From NCBI GenBank assembly GCA_029936315.1, contig JAPYTD010000039.1, forward strand, positions 1 through 39,387: a stretch of 39,387 bases of DNA, read 5' to 3'. This DNA is from Planctomycetota bacterium. Lineage in GTDB: Bacteria > Planctomycetota > UBA1135 > UBA2386. Of this stretch, positions 2 through 14,464 are shown one piece after another. The notes beneath the pieces were generated by a model that did not search any database, had not been told where the DNA came from, and saw nothing but the letters and a program-made list of their open reading frames with translations. The translations under genes and the position numbers were made by a program. Numbering within the stretch: the first letter of the stretch is position 1; each line of letters begins with the position of its first letter.

Positions 2-2095
2 ACCAAAGGTCTGTGCATCGTGCTGTCCAGCCTGACGATGAACATGGGAATCACGGGCGATGCTGCGTTCGAGGTCATCCTGATGTTGTCGCTGATGTCG
101 GGGTGCATCCAGCTCGGCTTTGGCTTGCTACGGCTCGGCGGCATCGTGCGTTACGTCTCCAACTCCGTGGTGATTGGCTTTACCGCGGGAGCCGGCATCC
201 TGATCGCGGCCAAGCAACTGAAGGGAGTGCTCGGCATCGATATTGGCGGCGAGGCGAAACGAACCTACGAGGTCTTGATCGCGACCTTCGAACGCCTTGG
301 CGAGACCAATCCGTATGCGCTGACCATTGGGTTATTGACGGCTGTCTTGGTGCTTGTGCCCAAGATGCACCAGCGGCTGGCGCGGGTGCCCGGAGCACTG
401 ATCGGCGTTGTCGTTGCGGGAGCTGTGTCGTACTGGCTCGGCTGGCACCTGCTCGAACCGGGGGCCAAGGTCGCCATCGTCAAGGACATCGAACCCGGGA
501 TCATCGGCAGCCTCGATATCTTCCGGGTTCCGGAGCACGTCAAGAACCCTGACTTCGGCCTGACGCAGGACTTGTTTGCCGGCGCGTTCGCGGTGTCGAT
601 TCTGAGTCTGATCGAAGCGACGTCGATCTCGCGTATCGTCGCGCGCTCGTCGCGGCAGAAGCTCGACTTCAACCGCGAGTTCATCGGTCAGGGCATCTCG
701 AAGATCGTCGGCTCGTTCTTCATGTGCTTTGCCGGTTCGGGTTCGTTTACGCGCACCGCTGTGAATCACCAGTCCGGTGGCAAGACCCGGATGGCGGCGG
801 TGTTCTCGGCGATGTGGACGGCACTGGCCTTGCTGCTGTTGGCGCCGGTCGCCGAGTTCATCCCGCAGCCAGCGCTCGCCGGCATGATCATCGTGATCGC
901 TTACTCGATGGTCGACAAGCAGCGCATCAAGTTGAGCTGGCAGTCCGGCCGCAACTCGCAAATCGTGCTGGTGGGCACGATGGGGGCGACGCTGATTCTG
1001 CCGCTCGAGTGGGCGATCTTCATCGGCGTGATGCTGTCCTTGGTCGTGATCCTGCGTGCGACGGGTCGCACCGACCTGACCCAGTTGGTGCCGCGCCCCG
1101 ATGGCGACTTCGATGAAGTGCCATTCAACCGCGCCGCGCCGTCGCCGGTTCTGACCGTCAACATGTCTGGCGACATCTACTTTGCGGCGGCCGAGGATCT
1201 CGATTCGAAGTTGATCCGCTCATTGACGCCGCAAACGCGCGTAGTGGTGTTGCGCATGAAGCGGTTGCGCGCCGCGGGTAGCACGGCCATGTCGATGCTT
1301 GAGCACTTCTGGCAACTGCTGCGCGAGCGCCGGATCTACCTGGTGGTCTGTGGCATCGGGCGTGACCTCGAGACGCTGATGGGCTCGACTGGTTTGCTGC
1401 GCAAGATTGGCGAAGAGAACATCTTCTACGCCGACAACAAACTGTTCCAGTCGACGCGGCTGGCGATGGCGCGAGCCCAGTCAGTGCACCAGCGCTACCA
1501 GCAGGTTCACGGGCGGCGACCACAAGATCCTTCTGCCGACGAGGCCGATGCTGCGGGCAAGGCGGTGGTCGGCAAGGCCCTGATGACCACTCGCTTCCCG
1601 TTGTTTGGCAGCGAGCACCAGACCCGAGAAGCCGTGTGGTTGCTGTCGGAAACGCAGAAGTTCAAAGGCACGATCAATCCAGAGCCACTGTTTCTGCAGG
1701 ATCGCAATGGCGCGTTGTTCGGCGAGCTGTCGCGGTGGCACGTGTTGCAGGCTCTGATCGAAGGGTCGAACCCAGACGATGACGATGCGATGAGCGACGA
1801 ACAGGTCGCCGAGATGCTGCGGCGTAACTTTGCGCGTCGCATCAACCACATCTCTCGCACCGACGTAGTGCACCACTTGCCGGACACCGAGATCACCACT
1901 CTGTTGCGATCGTCGGCACAGAACGATCAGGCTGTGGTTCCGATCTGTGATGACGCTGGGCGGTTGAAGGGATACTGCATTTCGAATGCGCTACTCGCTG
2001 GCTTGGACCAGTCGTTGACGGCTATGGCCGCCAAGGCCGACGAATCCGCCGAGGCCGATGAAGCCGCCGAACCCGAGGAGCGCACCGATGGCTGA
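2..2095 (+). CDS. SulP-family anion transporter with STAS and CBS-like C-terminal regions (5' truncated)
   Basis: The reading frame is open from the first base, so the true start lies left of the window; 697 residues are visible. The first 370 or so are hydrophobic transmembrane segments with SulP character, including a charged stretch after GFTAGAGILIAAKQLKG. This is followed by a STAS domain (about 1140-1480) with the pattern of short beta strands and helices found in SulP tails. SulP proteins carry sulfate, bicarbonate or other anions across the inner membrane. Unusually, about 170 more residues follow the STAS domain (about 1550-2020); they resemble a CBS pair, with a strand-helix pattern ending in VVPICDDAGRLKGYCI. 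The tail is rich in Glu and Ala. The stop overlaps the start of the next CBS gene by 8 bases, so the two are probably translated together. The substrate cannot be read from the sequence. Confidence 0.9.
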   Translation, partial: TKGLCIVLSSLTMNMGITGDAAFEVILMLSLMSGCIQLGFGLLRLGGIVRYVSNSVVIGFTAGAGILIAAKQLKGVLGIDIGGEAKRTYEVLIATFERLGETNPYALTIGLLTAVLVLVPKMHQRLARVPGALIGVVVAGAVSYWLGWHLLEPGAKVAIVKDIEPGIIGSLDIFRVPEHVKNPDFGLTQDLFAGAFAVSILSLIEATSISRIVARSSRQKLDFNREFIGQGISKIVGSFFMCFAGSGSFTRTAVNHQSGGKTRMAAVFSAMWTALALLLLAPVAEFIPQPALAGMIIVIAYSMVDKQRIKLSWQSGRNSQIVLVGTMGATLILPLEWAIFIGVMLSLVVILRATGRTDLTQLVPRPDGDFDEVPFNRAAPSPVLTVNMSGDIYFAAAEDLDSKLIRSLTPQTRVVVLRMKRLRAAGSTAMSMLEHFWQLLRERRIYLVVCGIGRDLETLMGSTGLLRKIGEENIFYADNKLFQSTRLAMARAQSVHQRYQQVHGRRPQDPSADEADAAGKAVVGKALMTTRFPLFGSEHQTREAVWLLSETQKFKGTINPEPLFLQDRNGALFGELSRWHVLQALIEGSNPDDDDAMSDEQVAEMLRRNFARRINHISRTDVVHHLPDTEITTLLRSSAQNDQAVVPICDDAGRLKGYCISNALLAGLDQSLTAMAAKADESAEADEAAEPEERTDG

Positions 2096-4567: not shown

Positions 4568-7162
4568 TCAGTTGCGGGTCGCGACCGTCAACGATCCAAC
4601 AAGCTCGATTCCGCTCCCTGTAAGCCGCAACTCGTACACCCCCTTCGACAGGAAGCGTACCTGCGAGACGAAGTAAGGGCTCATGCTCGACCCGCGCTTG
4701 GTGACCAGGTCCCAGCGGAATTGGTTTAGCCCCTTGCGGCCGCGCAACTCCTGTTCGAACACTACTGCGCCCTTCTGGTCGCGCACCGCCAGCGTCATTG
4801 CTGCAGCCTGCGTTAGATAGAACGTGATGGGCACGCGCTCTTCGAACGACCGGCGTGCTACCGGTACGGTGTCGTCTTTCTTGGGCCTGTAGGCAATTGG
4901 GGTCTTGGCGAGTGCCGGCGCTTGCAGTTGGCCTTCACCCAACAACCAGTGCAGCGGCGCGAGATTGAGCCGATAGATGCCACGGCCGTGGGTCGCTGCG
5001 ATCAGGTCCAGTTCACGCTCCTGGATCACCAGGTCGGCGACGGCCACGGCCGGCATGCCCTTGCCGAGCAAGGACCAATGCAGGCCGCGATCGATGGACA
5101 CGTAGACGCCGCGATACATCGCGGCATACAGGACATCCTCATGGCGCGGATCCTCGACGATCGTGTAGGCGACTTCGTCCGGCAGGTTTGAGACGATCGA
5201 ACGCCATGTCGCGCCGTAGTCCTCAGATGCGTAGAGGTAGGCGTGCAGGTCATCGTGGTTGATACCGGTAACCGTGACGTAGACGCGGGACTTCGTGAAC
5301 CGCGATGCACAGATGCTGCGGATGTAGTGGGGCGGTAGCCCGGCCGAATGCTCCGACCACTGCTTGCCTTCGTCCTTCGTTACCCACAAGGCACCTCGGT
5401 CCGTGCCACAGTAGAGCAGTCCTTTTTGCAGCGTGGACTCGGCGACGGCACCTGCCGCGATGCCACGATGGGAAACTAGGCCAGACTGTGAGAAGTCCGG
5501 GCTGATCACCTGCCAAGAATCGCCGCGATCGGGGCTGCGTAGCAGGTAGTTGCCACCGTGGTAGAGCACACGGTGGTCGTGTGCTGAGACCAGGTACGGC
5601 GCGATGAAGTTGTGTCGCAACTTGCCCTCGTGACCTTTCGGTAATCGTGGCGCAATCGACTTCGAGCGGTGCGTTGGCACATGTTGGCGATGCAGGCCGC
5701 CGTGCTGGCTTGAGAAGTAGACGGTGTCAGGATCCTCGATATCCGGAACGGTGTAGCAGCCATCGCCACCGCACCACGAATCGAGCCAGACATACTCCCA
5801 GTGGTCGGGTTGGCCCCAATGGCGCTCGTGGGCGGGTCCGCGGACCGCGGAGTCATCTTGGGTGCCGCCGTAGATCAGGTAGGGATCGCCTTGGTCGACC
5901 GCGATGTCGTAGAACTCACCGACCGCAAGATTGTTGTGGTGCAGCCACGACGCGCCGCGGTCGTGACTAACGAAGAGGCCGCCGTCGTTACCGAGGATCA
6001 GGTGTTCGGGATGCAGCGGATCGATCCACATCTCGCACTGATCGAGGTGCAGGGCTTGCGCCGGGCTTGGTACGAGATGGGTGACATCACCGCCGACCAA
6101 CTCGAAGGTTGCTCCGCCGTCTGTACTGTGCGCCATGCGCACGCCTAGCGCGTAGATCTCGTCATCATCCAACGGGTTGATGTAGCAGTCCGAGAAGTAC
6201 CAGCCAATGCGTGAGTTGATCTCGAGATCCTGTGCGTGCGTGCGCTGCCAACTCTGACCGCCATCCTCACTGCGGTAGACTTCGCCCGGGTTCTTGTCGC
6301 GGTTGAGGTTGTCGATGAAGGCGTACACTTTATCAGGGTTGGTCCACGACACCGCGAGGCCGATGCGCCCAGTCTTCGGACCTTCGGGCAAGCCGCCACG
6401 AAGCCGCGTCCACGTTCGTCCGCCATCGGCACTGCGGTGAACACCGCTAGTCATGCCGCTCGTGCCGGGATGGTTCTGCCACATCGACGCGTAGGCGATC
6501 TCCGGGTGCGACGGCGCGAAGACGACATCGTTGGCGCCGGTGTGCTCGTCGACGAACAACACATGCTCCCATGTGTCGCCGCCGTCCTCGGTTCGGTACA
6601 TGCCGCGGTTCTTGTTGCTCGACCAGAAGTGGCCGAGCACAGCTACCAGTGCCGTGTCGGGCTTGCTCGGATGCACACTGATCTCGCCAATGTGCCAGGA
6701 ATCCCGCAAGCCGACGTTGCGCCAGCTTTCGCCACCGTCGCGTGACAGGAACACGCCGGTGCCTGGCATGGTGAAGTTGCGGGGCTTCTTCAGGCTCTCG
6801 CCCGAGCCAAGCCACAGCACTTGCGGATCCGATGGTGCGAGCGCAATGTCACCGATCCCGAGTGCCGACTGATCTTCGAAGATCGGCCGCCAGGAAAGCC
6901 CGCCATTGACCGTCTTCCACAGGTTGCCGGAGCCGAAGGCCGCATACATGGTGCCGGGCGATGTCGGGTCGCCTTGTACTGCCTCGACCCGCGCGGAGTT
7001 CATCACCGGTCCGAGCGACACCCATTGCAGGCCATATTCGGAAGTCTCCTTGGCCTGCACGTATTGCTCGAACGATGCGATCAGCGGGCTCTCGGGCGAC
7101 TGGCAGACGCCAACCGAGATGCACGACAACGACAGGAGGTAACTGGCAATGGGGCGCGGCAT
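4568..7162 (-). CDS. Secreted sortilin/VPS10-like Asp-box beta-propeller protein
   Basis: An 864-residue protein with an N-terminal signal peptide (hydrophobic segment ending near SVGVCQS). Most of the sequence consists of WD40/YVTN/BNR-like propeller blades. I count about ten to eleven Asp-box motifs of the form S-x-D-x-G-x-T/S-W, for example SRDGGESWRNV, TEDGGDTWEHV, SADGGRTWTRL, SPDRGDSWQVI and SEDYGATWRSI, as in sortilin-type propellers and BNR glycosidases. A C-terminal domain of about 110 residues after the propeller resembles a beta sandwich and contains GLNQFRWDLVT. It has no recognisable sialidase catalytic set, so it may be a binding protein rather than an enzyme. It is divergent from, and clearly homologous to, the gene starting at 7291, sharing blade order and motifs such as GTGVF and WRNVGL. 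Confidence 0.87.
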   Translation of the reverse strand: MPRPIASYLLSLSCISVGVCQSPESPLIASFEQYVQAKETSEYGLQWVSLGPVMNSARVEAVQGDPTSPGTMYAAFGSGNLWKTVNGGLSWRPIFEDQSALGIGDIALAPSDPQVLWLGSGESLKKPRNFTMPGTGVFLSRDGGESWRNVGLRDSWHIGEISVHPSKPDTALVAVLGHFWSSNKNRGMYRTEDGGDTWEHVLFVDEHTGANDVVFAPSHPEIAYASMWQNHPGTSGMTSGVHRSADGGRTWTRLRGGLPEGPKTGRIGLAVSWTNPDKVYAFIDNLNRDKNPGEVYRSEDGGQSWQRTHAQDLEINSRIGWYFSDCYINPLDDDEIYALGVRMAHSTDGGATFELVGGDVTHLVPSPAQALHLDQCEMWIDPLHPEHLILGNDGGLFVSHDRGASWLHHNNLAVGEFYDIAVDQGDPYLIYGGTQDDSAVRGPAHERHWGQPDHWEYVWLDSWCGGDGCYTVPDIEDPDTVYFSSQHGGLHRQHVPTHRSKSIAPRLPKGHEGKLRHNFIAPYLVSAHDHRVLYHGGNYLLRSPDRGDSWQVISPDFSQSGLVSHRGIAAGAVAESTLQKGLLYCGTDRGALWVTKDEGKQWSEHSAGLPPHYIRSICASRFTKSRVYVTVTGINHDDLHAYLYASEDYGATWRSIVSNLPDEVAYTIVEDPRHEDVLYAAMYRGVYVSIDRGLHWSLLGKGMPAVAVADLVIQERELDLIAATHGRGIYRLNLAPLHWLLGEGQLQAPALAKTPIAYRPKKDDTVPVARRSFEERVPITFYLTQAAAMTLAVRDQKGAVVFEQELRGRKGLNQFRWDLVTKRGSSMSPYFVSQVRFLSKGVYELRLTGSGIELVGSLTVATRN

Positions 7163-7290
7163 GAAGGTGCTCGTCGGGTAGTTGTGCAGGACGACAACAG
7201 CATGACGGTATCTACCCGTACAGCAACGCTGCTAGCCCAAGCGTCGACCGACACGTGGGGCTGCGAGAACCGAGCGTCTATGCTTTGTGG
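7163..7290. promoter_or_regulatory. Divergent intergenic region between the two Asp-box genes
   Basis: These 128 bases separate the starts of two divergent paralogous genes, so promoters for both must lie here or in the coding starts. A TATGCT sequence at about 7280-7285 could be a -10 for the plus-strand gene. I could not identify a convincing -35 for either direction or a clear shared operator. Confidence 0.35.
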
Positions 7291-9495
7291 ATGAGAACTT
7301 CGGTTGCAGTGGTAGCCCTCGCTTCCTTGGCGGCTTGCACGCTCGGCGGAGCAGGGCCGTTGACCGGGCTCGAATGGCGCGCGATTGGGCCGCGCATGTG
7401 CGGTGGCCGGATCGAAGCGATCGCAGTACACGACCGGACCTTCTATGTCGGGGCGGGCTCCGGCAACCTCTGGCGCAGCGAGGACCAGGGGAGGACCTGG
7501 CTGCCGATCTTTGATTGCGAGTCGACGTTTGCCGTCGGCGCTGTCGCGGTTGCGCCATCGGATCCGCAAGTGCTGTGGGTCGGTACGGGAGAAGTGTTGA
7601 TGGCGCGCAGTTCGTATGCCGGCACGGGCGTGTTCCGCTCGACGGACCGCGGCCAGACCTGGCGCAACGTCGGCCTGGCTGACAGCTACCACATCGGCCG
7701 TATCGTTGTGCACCCGGACGATCCCATGACGGCATGGGTCGCGGCCATCGGCCACAACTACACGCAGAACGAACAACGTGGCTTGTTCTGCACGCGAGAC
7801 GGAGGTGAAAACTGGCAGCAGGTGCTCTACGTCTCCCCACGGGTTGGTGCCATCGAGGTCGTGATGCACCCGACGAACCCGGACAAGTTGTTCGCGGTTA
7901 CTTGGGAGCGGGAGCGGCAGGCATGGAACAACGTCGACCATGGCACTGGTAGCGGGGTGCACGCGTCGACCGACGGTGGCCGGACCTGGCGAGTGCTTGC
8001 CGGTGGCTTGCCCAGCGGCGAGTTGCTCGGTCGTATCGGTCTGGGCATCGCCCGCTCCAAGCCGCAGACGATGTATGCAATTGTCGACAGCCATGAACGC
8101 GATGCCAAGAACCGACGCATCGGTGGGGTGCTGTTCCGTTCTGACGATGGCGGCACCACGTGGTCTCAGACAACCAGCCAGCGTTTGCCGACCCGCATCG
8201 GCTACGACCTGTGCGAAGTTGTCGTCGCCCCTGACAACGCAGAAGAGGTGTGGGTCACTGGCCACTACCTGCTGCACTCGCTCGATGGCGGCAAGACCTT
8301 CGAGCGCGTCGCAGGCGAGATCGACAATGTGCTGCCGAACCCGGCGGACATCCTGCATCTCGACTGCCATGAACTGTGGATTGACCCTGAGCACGGCGAC
8401 CACATGATTCTCGGCACCGATGGTGGGGCGTATCGCACTACGGACCGCGGCAAGCGCTGGCTGCGCCTCAACGACATGCCGATTGCTGAGGTCTATGCGC
8501 TGACGCTTGATGATGCCGAACCGTACAACATCTACATCGGTACGCAGGACAACGCGGCACTGTTCGGGCCGGCGACTGGCGGCGTCGCCGCGGGTTCGGC
8601 CGACACCTGGCGCTATGTCTATCAGGATCGATGGGGCGGTGGTGACAGCTACTTCACCTACCCGGACCCGAGCGATGCGAACACCATCTACTACGAACAC
8701 CAGTTCGGAGACCTGCGGCGCAAGAACATGCGTTCGGGCAAGACCGTCGGCATTACACCGCGGGCCAGCGATGGCGAGCCACGGCTGCGACGCAACTGGA
8801 TGACACCGTTCGTCATCTCGCATTACGACTCCAAGACGCTGCTCTATGGCACCCAGCGGTTGTATCGCTCGCTGGATCGCGGGGATTCCTGGGCACCCAT
8901 CAGCCCGGACCTGACGACGAATCCTCTGGCGGGACAGCAAGGCAACGTCCCGTTCGGCACGATCACGTGCATTAGCGAATCGAAGTTCGCTGCCGACTGT
9001 GTCTATGTCGGCACCGATGACGGTGTCGTGCAGCTCACGCAAGACGGTGGCAACACCTGGCGTGGGATCTCTGATGCACTCCCGGGTAAGTGGGTCAGCC
9101 GTGTCGTCGCGTCGCAGCACGACGCTGCGCGCGTCTACGTGACGATGACGGGCTACCGGGAGGACGACTTCCGCGCCTACGTGTTCCGTTCTGACGACTA
9201 CGGCACTAGCTGGGCGACCATTGTAGGCGGCTTGCCTGCGGAGTCCGTCAACGTGCTGCGCGAGGATCCAGCCAACGGCGACGTGCTCTACCTCGGCACC
9301 GACCGAGGCGTTTACGCATCCTTCCGTGGTGGGGCGCACTGGCAATCGTTGCGTGGCAACCTGCCGACGACTCCGGTCCATGATCTTGCGGTGCAAACAA
9401 GAGCCAACGACCTGGTGATCGGCACCCATGGCCGGGGCGTGTTCGTATTGGACCTCAAGTCGATCGATGCGCACCCTGACGCTGCCCGGCGCTGA
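7291..9495 (+). CDS. Lipoprotein sortilin-like Asp-box beta-propeller
   Basis: A 734-residue protein with a lipoprotein signal: hydrophobic MRTSVAVVALASLAAC places the lipobox Cys at residue 16. The rest is a propeller with about eleven Asp-box motifs, for example SEDQGRTWLPI, STDRGQTWRNV, SDDGGTTWSQT, SLDRGDSWAPI and TQDGGNTWRGI, the same architecture as its divergent neighbour. Unlike that neighbour, it lacks the extra C-terminal sandwich and ends soon after GTHGRGVFVLDL. The open frame starts earlier, but the ATG at 7291 gives a clean lipoprotein signal. It is probably tethered in a membrane, binding or recognising something outside the cytoplasm. Enzyme activity cannot be inferred. The next gene converges with it after 121 bases, in which I see no clear terminator. 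Confidence 0.87.
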   Translation: MRTSVAVVALASLAACTLGGAGPLTGLEWRAIGPRMCGGRIEAIAVHDRTFYVGAGSGNLWRSEDQGRTWLPIFDCESTFAVGAVAVAPSDPQVLWVGTGEVLMARSSYAGTGVFRSTDRGQTWRNVGLADSYHIGRIVVHPDDPMTAWVAAIGHNYTQNEQRGLFCTRDGGENWQQVLYVSPRVGAIEVVMHPTNPDKLFAVTWERERQAWNNVDHGTGSGVHASTDGGRTWRVLAGGLPSGELLGRIGLGIARSKPQTMYAIVDSHERDAKNRRIGGVLFRSDDGGTTWSQTTSQRLPTRIGYDLCEVVVAPDNAEEVWVTGHYLLHSLDGGKTFERVAGEIDNVLPNPADILHLDCHELWIDPEHGDHMILGTDGGAYRTTDRGKRWLRLNDMPIAEVYALTLDDAEPYNIYIGTQDNAALFGPATGGVAAGSADTWRYVYQDRWGGGDSYFTYPDPSDANTIYYEHQFGDLRRKNMRSGKTVGITPRASDGEPRLRRNWMTPFVISHYDSKTLLYGTQRLYRSLDRGDSWAPISPDLTTNPLAGQQGNVPFGTITCISESKFAADCVYVGTDDGVVQLTQDGGNTWRGISDALPGKWVSRVVASQHDAARVYVTMTGYREDDFRAYVFRSDDYGTSWATIVGGLPAESVNVLREDPANGDVLYLGTDRGVYASFRGGAHWQSLRGNLPTTPVHDLAVQTRANDLVIGTHGRGVFVLDLKSIDAHPDAARR

Positions 9496-9616: not shown

Positions 9617-12475
9617 CTACCGCTTCGCTGCGGTCGCCTTGGACTCGACACGCTGCAAATGCGCGCGCATGACCTCGATTGTTTTGGCGTGCGGCTCAGA
9701 GCCTGCGAGATTGCGGTGCTCGGCCGGGTCGTTGGTCAGATCATACAACTCCTCGCCATCGGGCCAGGCCGCGTAGCGCCAGCGGGCGGTGCGGATGGAC
9801 TTGCCGAGGTTCTTGCGGCGCGTGACAACGGTGAATACGGCCTCTTTACCGGCGGTCGTCGGCTCGTCGAGCATCGCAACAAGGCTGCGTCCTTGCAGGT
9901 CGTCAGGGGCTGTCACGCCGGCCAGTTCGGCGAGCGTTGGGTAGAGGTCTAGCAACTCGACAAGGCCTGCACTTGACGATCGATCCTTCGTTCGACCGGG
10001 CACGCGGATGATCAGCGGCACGCGGGCGCAAACCTCGAACAGCGTTACCTTGCCCCACATGGAATGCTCGCCGAGTTGGTAGCCGTGATCCGAGGTGAGC
10101 ACGACGATCGTGTCGTGCCAATGTCCCGTGCGCTGCAAGGCATCGAGGATCAGGCCGATCTGGGCGTCGAGGAAGGAGATGCAGGCGTGATAGGACTGCA
10201 CATACTCGCGACGTAGTGAGTCGTTTTCGACGCCAAGTTCGAATCCAAAACCCTCGAAGCGCTTGACCATTGCGGAGTGCGGGGCCTGTTGCCAGAAGTC
10301 TGCCGGTGCTGGCGAGAACTTGAGTGCCTCTCTTGGATACATCGCGAAGTATGCGTCCGGCGCCAGGAAGGGCACGTGGGGCTTTTGGATGCCACATGCC
10401 ATGAAGAAGGGCTTGTCACCGTTGGGCCTGTCCTCCAACCACGAAACGACCTGCCTGGCGTTCTTGCCATCCTTGTGCTGCTCGTCACGCAATCCCGAGG
10501 GACCGTAGCCTGGTTGCTTCTGACCGCGCGTTTGGGTGCCGATAGCATGGAACCTCTGTTTCCACAGGCGGCGCGTAGCGCCCTTGGTGATGGATCCGTG
10601 TTCGGCTTCGAAGGCCTCTCGCACCTTGGCTACGATGGGTAATTCGTCGTTCGCGAATCGGTGCGCCTCGTGCCACGCCAGCTCTCCTGGGTCGATCTTC
10701 GCATTGTGGAAGACCTTGCCGACAGCGCCGGTCCAATACCCAGCCCGCTTGAAGTTCTGTGGCAGGGAGATGGTGCCGGGTCTGGTTTGGCGGATGTCGA
10801 CCTTGTTGTTCAGTACTCCGGTCGATTGCGGGTAGAGGCCGTGCAGGAATGATGCTCGCGAAGGGCCACAGACGGGGTACTGGCAGTAGGCGCGCGTGAA
10901 CGTCATGCCGGCGGCGGCGAGCTGTTCGAAAGCCGGGGTTTGGATGTGCCGGTAGCCCGATGTCGAAACGTGTGCGTTGAGATCGTCACAAACGATGAAT
11001 AGCACGTTCTTCGGCGTCACGGGAGCCGGCGCGCTGCCCTGCTTCTTCTTGTTCTGCTTGCGCTGCAGGCGTCGTTCGGCGCGCTTCTTCTGCCGCATCG
11101 TCTCACGACCCGACGTCTCGTCGGGAACTCGGGCGGTCCATCGCTTGTCGCTGCCGGTGATTGGATCGACCATCTGTTCGATCCACGTGTCGAAGGCACC
11201 CCTGAGCTCCCTTACCTGGTCGGGGTTTTCTTTGGCGACGTTCGTCTTCTCGGCTGGGTCATCGCCGAGATGGAACAAACTCAGAGCCTGCTTGTTCGCA
11301 TGCAGTTTCCAGTCGCCGCGACGTACGGCCCACTCGCCACTCTTGCCGCCTTCGCTCCAGTAAAGCGTGTCATGGTGAGTCTTCGAGTCACCGGTAAGCA
11401 GAGGTAGCAGGCTCTTGCCGTCAAACCGACTCCCTTCGGGCTCCTGCACACCGATCGCGGCAAGAACGGTCGGGAGGATGTCCAACGAGATGACCGGCGT
11501 GTCGACGGTGCGATTGCCAGCGAACTTCTTTGGCCAGCTGACGATGAAGGGTGTCCGGATGCCTCCTTCGTACAGACTCCCCTTGAATCCACGGAGCGGC
11601 GTGTTGTCCGCCATCATGTTCTTGGCGCCCCCGTTGTCGGTCAAGAAGAACAGCAGCGTGTTGTCGAACAGCCCTTCACTCTTCAACTTCCCGACGACTT
11701 CGCCGACCCCGTCATCGAGGTGCCCAAGCATGGCCATCAGGATGGCGCGCTTCTCGCTGATGCCTGGGAATCGTCGGCGCACGTCGTCGATGTCTGCCTT
11801 CGGCGCTTCTGGCGGAGCATGCACCGCGTTGTAGGCAAGGTAGAGGAAAAACGGCTTGGCCTTGTTGCGCTCGATGAACCCGACAGCCTCCTCGGTCAAG
11901 CGGTTGGTCAGGTAGCCCTCGTCGTTGATGCGCTCCCGGTTGCGATAGATCGGGTGCGCGAACTTGTCTGTGCTGTCGCTCCTCAGGTCGAAGTAGCTGT
12001 GGCCGCCACGACCCATGAACTTGTAGCACTCGTCGAAGCCGCGACTCATCGCGTGCCACTTCAGTTTGGGATAGTCGGCATCGAGACCGAGGTGCCACTT
12101 GCCGATCGCCGTGGACCGATACTGCGTCGGTAGGAATCCCGGGAAGATCGTCAACGTTGGGTCGAACCCACGCCCGCCATCACCAGCCGTATAGACGCCA
12201 ACGCGCTGTTGGTACTTCCCCAGCATCAAGCCGGCTCGCGTCGGTGAGCAGACCTGGCCGCTGATGTAGCCCTGTGAAAACTGCACGCCGTCGGATGCCA
12301 GCGCATCCATGTGCGGCGTCGCCACTTCATCTCGGTGATGAGGATTCAGGCCTATGTCGGCGTAGCCCTGGTCGTCGGTCAAGATGACGACGATGTTTGG
12401 TTGTTGCGCCGGGGTTGAGGATGCGACCAGGCAGAGGGCGGTTGCCCAGAGCCACGGGATGAGATTCTTGTTCAC
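9617..12475 (-). CDS. Double sulfatase: two formylglycine-type sulfatase domains in one exported polypeptide
   Basis: One uninterrupted 952-codon frame carries two sulfatase domains. The GTG at 12475 gives a signal peptide (VNKNLIPWLWATALCLVASS). Domain 1 (about residues 26-440) has metal ligands D34/D35 in ILTDDQGYAD and the formylglycine motif C76-S-P-T-R, like arylsulfatases. A linker of about 50 residues is basic and low-complexity (MRQKKRAERRLQRKQNKKK). Domain 2 (about 490-952) has D497/D498 in IVCDDLN and the motif C536-G-P-S-R, and resembles iduronate-2-sulfatase-type enzymes, with SDHGYQLGEHSMWGK near the C-terminal half. Both Cys residues should need formylglycine conversion by a maturase not seen here. 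The gene starts 34 bases after the stop of the GH71/99-like gene, so the two are likely in an operon. An upstream ATG at 12553 would overlap that gene and lack a good signal. Confidence 0.9.
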   Translation of the reverse strand: MNKNLIPWLWATALCLVASSTPAQQPNIVVILTDDQGYADIGLNPHHRDEVATPHMDALASDGVQFSQGYISGQVCSPTRAGLMLGKYQQRVGVYTAGDGGRGFDPTLTIFPGFLPTQYRSTAIGKWHLGLDADYPKLKWHAMSRGFDECYKFMGRGGHSYFDLRSDSTDKFAHPIYRNRERINDEGYLTNRLTEEAVGFIERNKAKPFFLYLAYNAVHAPPEAPKADIDDVRRRFPGISEKRAILMAMLGHLDDGVGEVVGKLKSEGLFDNTLLFFLTDNGGAKNMMADNTPLRGFKGSLYEGGIRTPFIVSWPKKFAGNRTVDTPVISLDILPTVLAAIGVQEPEGSRFDGKSLLPLLTGDSKTHHDTLYWSEGGKSGEWAVRRGDWKLHANKQALSLFHLGDDPAEKTNVAKENPDQVRELRGAFDTWIEQMVDPITGSDKRWTARVPDETSGRETMRQKKRAERRLQRKQNKKKQGSAPAPVTPKNVLFIVCDDLNAHVSTSGYRHIQTPAFEQLAAAGMTFTRAYCQYPVCGPSRASFLHGLYPQSTGVLNNKVDIRQTRPGTISLPQNFKRAGYWTGAVGKVFHNAKIDPGELAWHEAHRFANDELPIVAKVREAFEAEHGSITKGATRRLWKQRFHAIGTQTRGQKQPGYGPSGLRDEQHKDGKNARQVVSWLEDRPNGDKPFFMACGIQKPHVPFLAPDAYFAMYPREALKFSPAPADFWQQAPHSAMVKRFEGFGFELGVENDSLRREYVQSYHACISFLDAQIGLILDALQRTGHWHDTIVVLTSDHGYQLGEHSMWGKVTLFEVCARVPLIIRVPGRTKDRSSSAGLVELLDLYPTLAELAGVTAPDDLQGRSLVAMLDEPTTAGKEAVFTVVTRRKNLGKSIRTARWRYAAWPDGEELYDLTNDPAEHRNLAGSEPHAKTIEVMRAHLQRVESKATAAKR

Positions 12476-12509
12476 GAGAGCGGGGGATCGGTAGGGACGG
12501 CCGCGAGGT

Positions 12510-13772
12510 TTAACGTCGCTGCTTTTTGGCTTGGGCAGTTCGCACGGGGACATCGATTGATGGTTTCCGCTCACCGCGCAGCAAGCGTGCACCTTCGCCA
12601 GCAAGCCACAGGTAGTGATCGGTCGGTAAGTTCTCGTAGTCGATGAAGGGGCTCGCGCCAATGGGCGGGTCGTTGGTGCATTTGAAGATCGCCGTGCCTT
12701 CGTCGACCTCGTCGAACATGGCGATGTAGAGCATCTCGGCCCCGGCCTTCTTGGCGCTGACGAACTGCTGCCACAAGAACTGGCCCCCGAGGCGGGGGAT
12801 TTGGTTCGACTTGGTTTCGCCCAACTTGAGGTTGCGCCAGCTGAATCCCGGGAAGACGACGGGCAGGTAGGCCTGCGATCTAGCACGGCACTTGGCCTGG
12901 TCTGCGCGCCAGTGAAGTTGGACCCGAGTTGCGACTTCGTTCGGATTGCGGAAGCGGCCGACGCTCCAAGGTGAAAGCACGTCGGCCTCAGCGAGAATCG
13001 CGGGCAACTCTTCGTCGTCGAGGCAATCCCTCTGCTGCTCCCGCCAATAGAACGGCACTCCGAGCATGACAGCGCATCGCCCACCGGCCTCACTCTTCAA
13101 GAAGCGGATCAGGTCCAGGCATTCTGGCAGCGTGTACTTGCGGCCGTCACGGAAGCCGACGCCCCAGACTGCTACCAGTGGTCGACCATCGTGCTGCAGA
13201 TAGGTTTCATCTGCGAGCACGCCGGCCTTCAACAAACGTCGCCAATCGGCTTTGACAGTCTGCACCTCGCCCGCGCGCAGACCGGAGAGGTCATACATCA
13301 CCGACCAGAGTCGTCCGTGCTGCTTCGCCGCCGAACGACAGTTTGCCAGCACGCGGTCGTCGCGGTTCTTGCGTCGCAGTCCGGTCGCGAAGCGCTGCAC
13401 GAACGCGCCGTCGATCCCGTATTCCTTCATCCATTGGAAGTGGCGATTGACGGTCTTTGGGTGATAGGAGGAGAACACCTTCGCAACGCGCCCGTCGCGA
13501 TGCCGGAACGCCGTCGGGTACTGCTCGTCTTCGTCGGCCTCTCGCATGTCCGGCCATAGATCGATCGAACACTGTCCGGGTTCGAACTTGCCGTTTCGCG
13601 AGTAGTGGCGCCACCGTCTGTCGGAGCCGTCGCCCTCGGCGCGGAACCAGCCTTGGTAGCCTGTCATGACTTTGCCGCTCAGTTCGCGGTCGACGTTCTG
13701 GGCGACGACCATGGTGGCCGAAAGAACCAGGAAGGTGACCAGGTGGATCGCTGCGTGTTGAGTGAGGCGCAT
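12510..13772 (-). CDS. Glycoside hydrolase family 71/99-like secreted protein
   Basis: A 420-residue protein with a signal peptide (hydrophobic LVTFLVLSATMVVAQ). The mature part resembles bacterial GH71/99-like proteins, with GKVMTGYQGWF near the N-terminus, then FSSYHPKTVNRHFQWMKEYG, GIDGAFVQRF, and WGVGFRDGRKY, and later VFPGFSWRN and LYIAMFDEVDEGTAIFK. GH99 enzymes cleave alpha-mannose linkages internally, and GH71 enzymes cleave alpha-1,3-glucan; the substrate here cannot be determined. The acidic pair in MFDEVDEGT is a candidate for catalytic or binding residues. It lies directly upstream of the double sulfatase on the same strand, suggesting that both act on a sulfated polysaccharide. 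Confidence 0.83.
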   Translation of the reverse strand: MRLTQHAAIHLVTFLVLSATMVVAQNVDRELSGKVMTGYQGWFRAEGDGSDRRWRHYSRNGKFEPGQCSIDLWPDMREADEDEQYPTAFRHRDGRVAKVFSSYHPKTVNRHFQWMKEYGIDGAFVQRFATGLRRKNRDDRVLANCRSAAKQHGRLWSVMYDLSGLRAGEVQTVKADWRRLLKAGVLADETYLQHDGRPLVAVWGVGFRDGRKYTLPECLDLIRFLKSEAGGRCAVMLGVPFYWREQQRDCLDDEELPAILAEADVLSPWSVGRFRNPNEVATRVQLHWRADQAKCRARSQAYLPVVFPGFSWRNLKLGETKSNQIPRLGGQFLWQQFVSAKKAGAEMLYIAMFDEVDEGTAIFKCTNDPPIGASPFIDYENLPTDHYLWLAGEGARLLRGERKPSIDVPVRTAQAKKQRR

Positions 13773-13807: not shown

Positions 13808-14464
13808 CTAGAACTGGAATCCCATACCGATGACGAGACCCTCGGTGCGAATCTCTAGATCACTATCCGGCGCGAAAGCCTGGTTGATGTCATCCTGCTC
13901 AAAGTTCCACACTCGGTATCCCACAAAGACGTTGGTGTAGCGCCCGAGCGTCGCTCGCATTCCGAGTTCGCCACGAACGGACGTCGTTGCTCTCAGCATT
14001 GCTGAGAAGCTCCCATGCGCATAACCAGCAAGTGGACCGGCGATGGGGACCTCGAGGTCGAGACCGATTGCAGGGCCAAGCACTGCATTCGATCGGTGGA
14101 AGGATCCAACCTGCGCATCGAGGTCGGCGTATTCCAAGCCAAAGAGCAGCTTGCCACGCACCCGAGGCGTATCGGCGAATCGGTAGCGACCTTGCAGCTG
14201 CATCGACCGTACGGAGTAGTTTGAGGCGGGCCCCGTGTCGCCTTCCGCGCGAGTCGCCTCGAAGGACAATCCGCCACGTCCCGTCTTGGTGCCGTCTTCC
14301 GAGCGATTCCGTGAGAAGGTGTAGTCGGCTCGAACCGTCGGCATCACGATGCCGTCGTCCTTGATCTTGTAGTGCTGGGGCGGGCCAGCCAGGTAGCCGG
14401 ATCCGCAAGCCGTGCCAACGATCGAGCAGAGCCCGAGAAGGGCTGTTCGGACTGTGGAATCCAT
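13808..14464 (-). CDS. Predicted outer-membrane beta-barrel lipoprotein
   Basis: A 218-residue protein with an N-terminal hydrophobic stretch and a possible lipobox (SIVGTAC). The remainder alternates polar and aromatic residues as in outer-membrane beta barrels, for example GKLLFGLEYADLDAQVG and TNVFVGYRVWNFEQDD, and ends in GFQF, with a terminal Phe as in many barrel proteins. It has no recognised enzymatic motif. It begins 22 bases downstream (on the minus strand) of an 8-bp inverted repeat. The GH71/99-like gene follows on the same strand after a short gap, with no evidence about cotranscription. Confidence 0.68.
   Translation of the reverse strand: MDSTVRTALLGLCSIVGTACGSGYLAGPPQHYKIKDDGIVMPTVRADYTFSRNRSEDGTKTGRGGLSFEATRAEGDTGPASNYSVRSMQLQGRYRFADTPRVRGKLLFGLEYADLDAQVGSFHRSNAVLGPAIGLDLEVPIAGPLAGYAHGSFSAMLRATTSVRGELGMRATLGRYTNVFVGYRVWNFEQDDINQAFAPDSDLEIRTEGLVIGMGFQF

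Follow-up and report, generated by a model that had tools for sequence, protein, structure and literature searches.

Marine planctomycetes and verrucomicrobia can possess tens to hundreds of sulfatases, whose targets are unclear and which form few clear clusters of genes. In the planctomycetes P1 and P2 from Porphyra, Kim et al. 2016 (PMC4807772) reported a gene whose two sulfatase domains are unlike, and attributed it to a fusion of adjacent genes. In their comparison, the 5′ half was closest to a protein of Verrucomicrobia SCGC AAA164-E04, at about 60% identity, and the 3′ half resembled iduronate-2-sulfatase/choline-sulfatase. Fusions of sulfatases with glycosidases are known as well (PMC6388578). 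PbSulf1-GH195 of Polaribacter joins an S1 sulfatase (S1_51) to a GH99-related endo-mannanase; the two are split in a second bacterium, and the sulfatase must act before the endo-mannanase on diatom sulfated mannan (PMC13063451). Here we analysed a stretch of 39,387 nucleotides from a Planctomycetota bacterium (contig JAPYTD010000039.1, hereafter the window). It carries on its minus strand, at 9617..12475, a 952-residue frame with two sulfatase domains. With a probability of about 0.7, we read this frame as a genuine secreted bifunctional sulfatase, fused from neighbouring S1_19-like and S1_7-like genes, that would take two esters off one polysaccharide.

The P1/P2 genes and the window frame bear the same two annotations, as unlike sulfatases in one frame, and by their description probably belong to the same family. 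One of the loci compared here, L012, is a scaffold of the single-cell genome SCGC AAA164-E04. It carries domain 1 and domain 2 as neighbouring genes, and the window domain 1 is 53% identical to its counterpart there. Fused unlike sulfatases are already known from PMC4807772; the recurrence of the fusion, the origin of its linker from a C-terminal tail and the association with a GH99-like gene were not met with in the literature consulted. Neither these nor the split, neighbouring form of the pair are reported in the section of PMC4807772 consulted. The window fusion and PbSulf1-GH195 have in common a secreted S1 sulfatase fused to a second carbohydrate enzyme, the occurrence of the two parts as separate genes in relatives and the involvement of a GH99-related enzyme. 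However, PbSulf1-GH195 has a glycoside hydrolase partner and a type IX secretion system (T9SS) domain, whereas the window protein joins one sulfatase to another and leaves the GH99-like enzyme to a gene of its own. PbSulf1-GH195 is the closest characterised precedent for an order in which a sulfatase acts before an endo-cut (PMC13063451).

Two full sulfatase domains in one open frame

The fusion starts with a GTG codon at 12475 and ends with the stop codon at 9617-9619, and its translation contains no internal stop. The span from stop to stop is longer (9617-13093, 1158 residues). Upstream of 12475, this extended frame is without a sulfatase domain and overlaps, in another frame, the GH99-like gene described below. 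The Pfam sulfatase profile PF00884 (301 model positions, cut-off of 25 bits) matched twice and each time over model positions 1-301, at 11447-12400 for domain 1 (174.8 bits) and at 9914-11011 for domain 2 (151.4 bits). Two complete sulfatases in a single frame had been proposed, with no strand given, by a first-pass annotation made from the letters alone, and its residue assignments held as well. The C/S-x-P-x-R signature occurs as CSPTR with Cys76 in domain 1 and as CGPSR with Cys536 in domain 2, and each half has its own Asp-Asp metal motif (LTDDQGY and VCDDLN, respectively). Both halves further contain a Lys/His motif (GKWH in domain 1, GKVFH in domain 2), another His (NAVH, KPH), a second metal pair (TDNG, TSDHG) and a late Lys. 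In the alignment of relatives, the catalytic motif residues did not vary in any row of domain 1, nor in any row of domain 2 that was not truncated there.

Domain 1 (about residues 24-440; 11156..12406, minus strand) found its best PDB match by sequence in 6prm (S1_19, phmmer E 3.6e-79) and its best fold match in 6psm (PsS1_19B, Foldseek TM 0.83, 37% identity). By these comparisons it appears nearest to the S1_19 carrageenan sulfatases, at that 37% identity. It resembles PsS1_19A/B and ZgCgsA in fold and catalytic residues but, unlike them, is joined to a second sulfatase, and it reads CSPTR where the aligned 6prm has CGPSR. Domain 2 (about residues 488-952; 9620..11014, minus strand) was matched best, both by sequence and by fold, by the S1_7 ulvan sulfatase P18_S1_7 (6hhm; phmmer E 6.5e-66; Foldseek TM 0.84, 30% identity). 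The E value against iduronate-2-sulfatase IDS (5fql) was 7.6e-45, and identity to 6HHM and IDS, both S1_7, is 25-30%. The ulvan sulfatase and human iduronate-2-sulfatase are like domain 2 in fold and catalytic residues; unlike them, domain 2 is the C-terminal half of a fusion and has no signal peptide of its own. Families and activities of the solved relatives follow PMC9096561, and families also PMC5066984.

The two domains are only 22% identical to each other, which indicates that they are different S1 sulfatase subtypes and that unlike enzymes were fused, as initially proposed. Since their nearest families also differ, a simple duplication is ruled out.

The first 23 or so residues (VNKNLIPWLWATALCLVASSTPA; 12407..12475, minus strand) look like an N-terminal Sec signal peptide, judged by eye from a basic start, a hydrophobic core and small residues ahead of the cut. 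A Pfam profile search of the host genome returned 53 PF00884 matches, and matches to the formylglycine-generating enzyme (FGE) family PF03781 are also present, the best scoring 256.9 bits. The same genome has a second two-sulfatase frame, of 1015 residues, which adjoins a further sulfatase (L084, G000:C52, 6392-9436). This frame is a distant relative, at 23-33% identity, and was ruled out as the same fusion. In a structure model of the whole window fusion (predicted local distance difference test, pLDDT, 83.5; predicted template modelling score, pTM, 0.53), the linker between the domains was largely of low confidence. With these values, a fixed channel joining the active sites is unsupported.

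Fused and split forms and the origin of the linker

A scan of genome contigs gave 80 loci, which were classified locally. Of these loci, 15, counting the window, have both domains in a single frame and in the order seen in the window. With the window set aside and L006 discounted for reasons given below, 13 such fusions remain, under record titles of Planctomycetota and Verrucomicrobiota. The first-pass annotation had suggested looking for this domain order in other Planctomycetota; it is found there and in a second phylum. In split pairs (18 loci adjacent and 1 near) the two genes are always on the same strand with domain 1 upstream of domain 2, and the downstream start codon overlaps the upstream stop codon by 4 nucleotides in 11 of the 19. 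At 17 other loci a domain 2 orthologue is fused behind a different S1_7-like sulfatase. These are L029, L030, L033, L039-L041, L045, L046, L051, L053, L055, L059-L061, L063, L064 and L076. In L030, the first half of the fusion retains the C-x-P-x-R motif as CAPAR. Two contigs of metagenome-assembled genomes, labelled actinobacterium (L038) and Acidimicrobiales (L083), carry planctomycete/verrucomicrobial sulfatases and are probably mis-binned.

When L006 was excluded, either domain tree required 6 changes between the fused and the split state, a count that has no power to tell fusion from fission. A single clade of all fusions was rejected on the domain-1 tree (approximately unbiased test, p-AU 6e-69), and so was a clade made of the window, L004 and L005 (p-AU 2e-4). 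Because the fusions form no single clade, the trees indicate that fusion or fission happened repeatedly. On the domain-2 tree, L019/L035 and L011/L014/L015/L016 have their domain 2 halves in a clade otherwise made up mostly of different-sulfatase fusions, separate from the clade that holds the window domain 2. Domain 1 therefore appears to have been paired with two domain 2 lineages.

The linker (about residues 441-487; 11015..11155, minus strand) is basic, as had been noted at first sight, with 16 K/R against 6 D/E in the stretch counted. The structure model predicts a helix at 456-476, and pLDDT falls below 50 at 449-458 and 474-485. Third-position GC is 0.83 in the linker as compared to 0.78 in domain 1 and 0.76 in domain 2, so that the linker looks coding. 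The K/R-rich C-terminal tail of split domain-1 genes (L049, ARELKREQKRAERKKARQ; L018, ARELERQRKREERKAQR) matches the window linker (RETMRQKKRAERRLQRKQ), indicating that linker and tail are homologous. In free-standing domain 2 proteins, the maximum 12-residue hydropathy ahead of the domain ranges from 1.90 to 2.98 (35 proteins), whereas it is at most 0.64 in the linkers of real fusions. The exception is L035 (1.38), the linker of which holds an inserted GH99-like domain. By this measure, the real fusions have lost the signal peptide that domain 2 bears when it stands alone. Overall, the basic tail and the hydropathy contrast point to coupled genes that were joined while the second signal peptide was dropped.

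These features bear on the possibility that the window frame arose from an error of assembly or sequencing that joined two overlapping neighbour genes. The neighbour genes of relatives overlap by 4 nucleotides, so that one indel could join them, and one such case was probably met in the fetched loci. The apparent fusion L006:2805-5870 contains an N run and a frame change, keeps an internal signal peptide and has a split nearest relative, L052; it is probably an assembly artefact. In the window, by contrast, domain 2 lacks the signal peptide, the basic tail keeps its conserved frame and third-position GC is coding-like throughout the linker. The same clean fusion is also seen in several other assemblies. 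The tail-derived linker, the lost signal peptide and the coding-like GC are the best evidence against a joined-up error. Judged from the sequence, an artefact in the window is very unlikely, and it was rejected on the absent signal peptide and the in-frame tail. The first-pass annotation had named separate-gene homologues and an artefactual frame as what would undo its claim. Many homologues are indeed separate neighbours, but the window frame does not look artefactual, and the error it feared was seen at L006 and not in the window.

A real fusion could still be a passive one, with sites that act on different substrates or a join that is neutral, arising passively from operon compaction and bringing co-export and equal dosage but no ordered processing of one polymer. 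The recurrence of fusion and fission would fit this, as would the 17 loci where domain 2 orthologues are joined to a different S1_7-like sulfatase and a flexible linker that is merely a former tail. Against it, domain 2 stays paired with domain 1 in two phyla, in fused and in neighbouring forms and without any change of order among the fetched pairs, as a shared pathway would lead one to expect. We consider a passive join improbable, though it deserves weight beside the bifunctional enzyme acting on one polysaccharide.

The GH99-like neighbour and the candidate substrate

Upstream of the fusion and on the same strand, a gene for a 420-residue protein (12510..13772, minus strand) ends 34 nucleotides before the fusion start. 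Its Pfam GH99 score of 26.3 bits lies below the curated cut-off of 33. The AlphaFold2 (AF2) model of the protein has a pTM of 0.84, its top 36 PDB fold matches are all GH99, at 12-16% identity, and its residues E355 and E358 align with the catalytic glutamates E333 and E336 of BxGH99. Because the fold and the Glu pair fit while the Pfam cut-off was missed, we label the protein, on the strength of the model, GH99-like and not GH99 proper. It would thus share with GH99 endo-alpha-mannosidases/mannanases the predicted fold and the two catalytic glutamates, but it differs from the solved members by its low identity and sub-threshold score, and its family may be GH195 or another one akin to GH99.

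The GH99-like gene is present in a single copy in the host genome, and relatives of it were found in nine other fetched loci. At L035:7866-12083, one frame of 1406 residues holds domain 1, then a GH99-like domain, then domain 2. In a separate sample, the gene occurred in 18 of 199 genomes of the phylum, the window's own counted. The link with the sulfatase pair is real but not universal. At L127:7108-9810, on the minus strand, a 901-residue frame has a sulfatase domain at residues 49-492 and, behind it, a GH99-like domain at 511-890. The L127 genome belongs to the window's own order, and the architecture resembles that of PbSulf1-GH195.

From these observations we infer the activity, substrate, order of action and linker role of the fusion as follows. 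The ancestral S1_19-like (domain 1) and S1_7-like (domain 2) genes were neighbours and probably translationally coupled. Loss of the domain 1 stop codon and of the domain 2 signal peptide would then have turned the basic tail of domain 1 into the linker. A single Sec signal would export both sites, and the FGE of the genome probably turns each of the two cysteines into formylglycine. The two sites, tethered side by side at a fixed 1:1 ratio, most likely take two different sulfate esters off the same sulfated polysaccharide, and the flexible cationic linker may hold the polyanionic substrate. Removal of the sulfates probably exposes the backbone to an endo-cut by the GH99-like enzyme. The leading candidate for the substrate is, possibly, a glycan of the sulfated alpha-mannan type. 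A pair kept together over two phyla, and repeatedly as one protein, would mark two activities of one pathway; the GH99-like partner offers a testable guess at the glycan, and the split and fused forms offer natural controls for the benefit of tethering two desulfation sites. One may go further and regard the two sulfatase domains and the GH99-like enzyme as a conserved module of three steps, which Planctomycetota and Verrucomicrobiota have as neighbours, as double fusion and as triple fusion (L035). Such a module would strip two kinds of sulfate from an uncharacterised glycan of the sulfated alpha-mannan type and then cut its backbone, the cationic linker keeping the polymer bound between sites. 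We offer this as a conjecture that is quite unlikely to hold in full.

The substrate could instead be carrageenan- or ulvan-like, with domain 1 acting on esters of the galactose-4-sulfate type and domain 2 on those of the xylose- or uronate-2-sulfate type. The nearest solved relatives are indeed carrageenan sulfatases of S1_19 for domain 1 and the S1_7 ulvan sulfatase 6HHM for domain 2 (PMC9096561), and S1_7 also includes a kappa-carrageenan sulfatase (PMC5066984). However, identities of 30-37% are too low for specificity to be carried over, the adjoining glycoside hydrolase is GH99-like, and the neighbouring genes that were scanned include neither a carrageenase nor an ulvan lyase. Those genes encode mostly further sulfatases, DUF1501, PQQ and BNR proteins, and none besides the GH99-like gene is diagnostic of a glycan. 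We regard a carrageenan- or ulvan-like substrate as fairly unlikely.

Several results weigh against a bifunctional enzyme that prepares a sulfated mannan. The fusion is rare: an end-to-end, high-identity match was obtained in 1 of 392 genomes of the phylum, the window's own, and the fusion was absent from 60 relatives at the threshold used. The structure model does not give a fixed arrangement of the two sites at its pTM of 0.53. The nearest solved relatives act on carrageenan (37%) and ulvan (30%), not on mannan. A sulfatase lies near the GH99-like gene in only 6 of 18 regions fetched from other genomes, a number that includes L127 with both domains in the same frame, and no GH99-like gene was seen in the flanks of the fetched split pairs. 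Finally, the host genome has no match to GH92, a family used by the sole characterised sulfated-mannan pathway.

A 218-residue protein without a Pfam match (13808..14464, minus strand) is encoded 35 nucleotides upstream of the GH99-like gene and, by its placement, may be the third member of one transcription unit with that gene and the fusion. On the other side of the fusion, two divergent adjoining genes (4568-7162, minus strand; 7255-9495, plus strand) both encode Sortilin-Vps10/BNR repeats. Elsewhere on the contig that carries the sulfatases, a gene at 20-2095 (plus strand) encodes a SulP-type sulfate permease with a STAS domain, which is a conceivable import route for the released sulfate.
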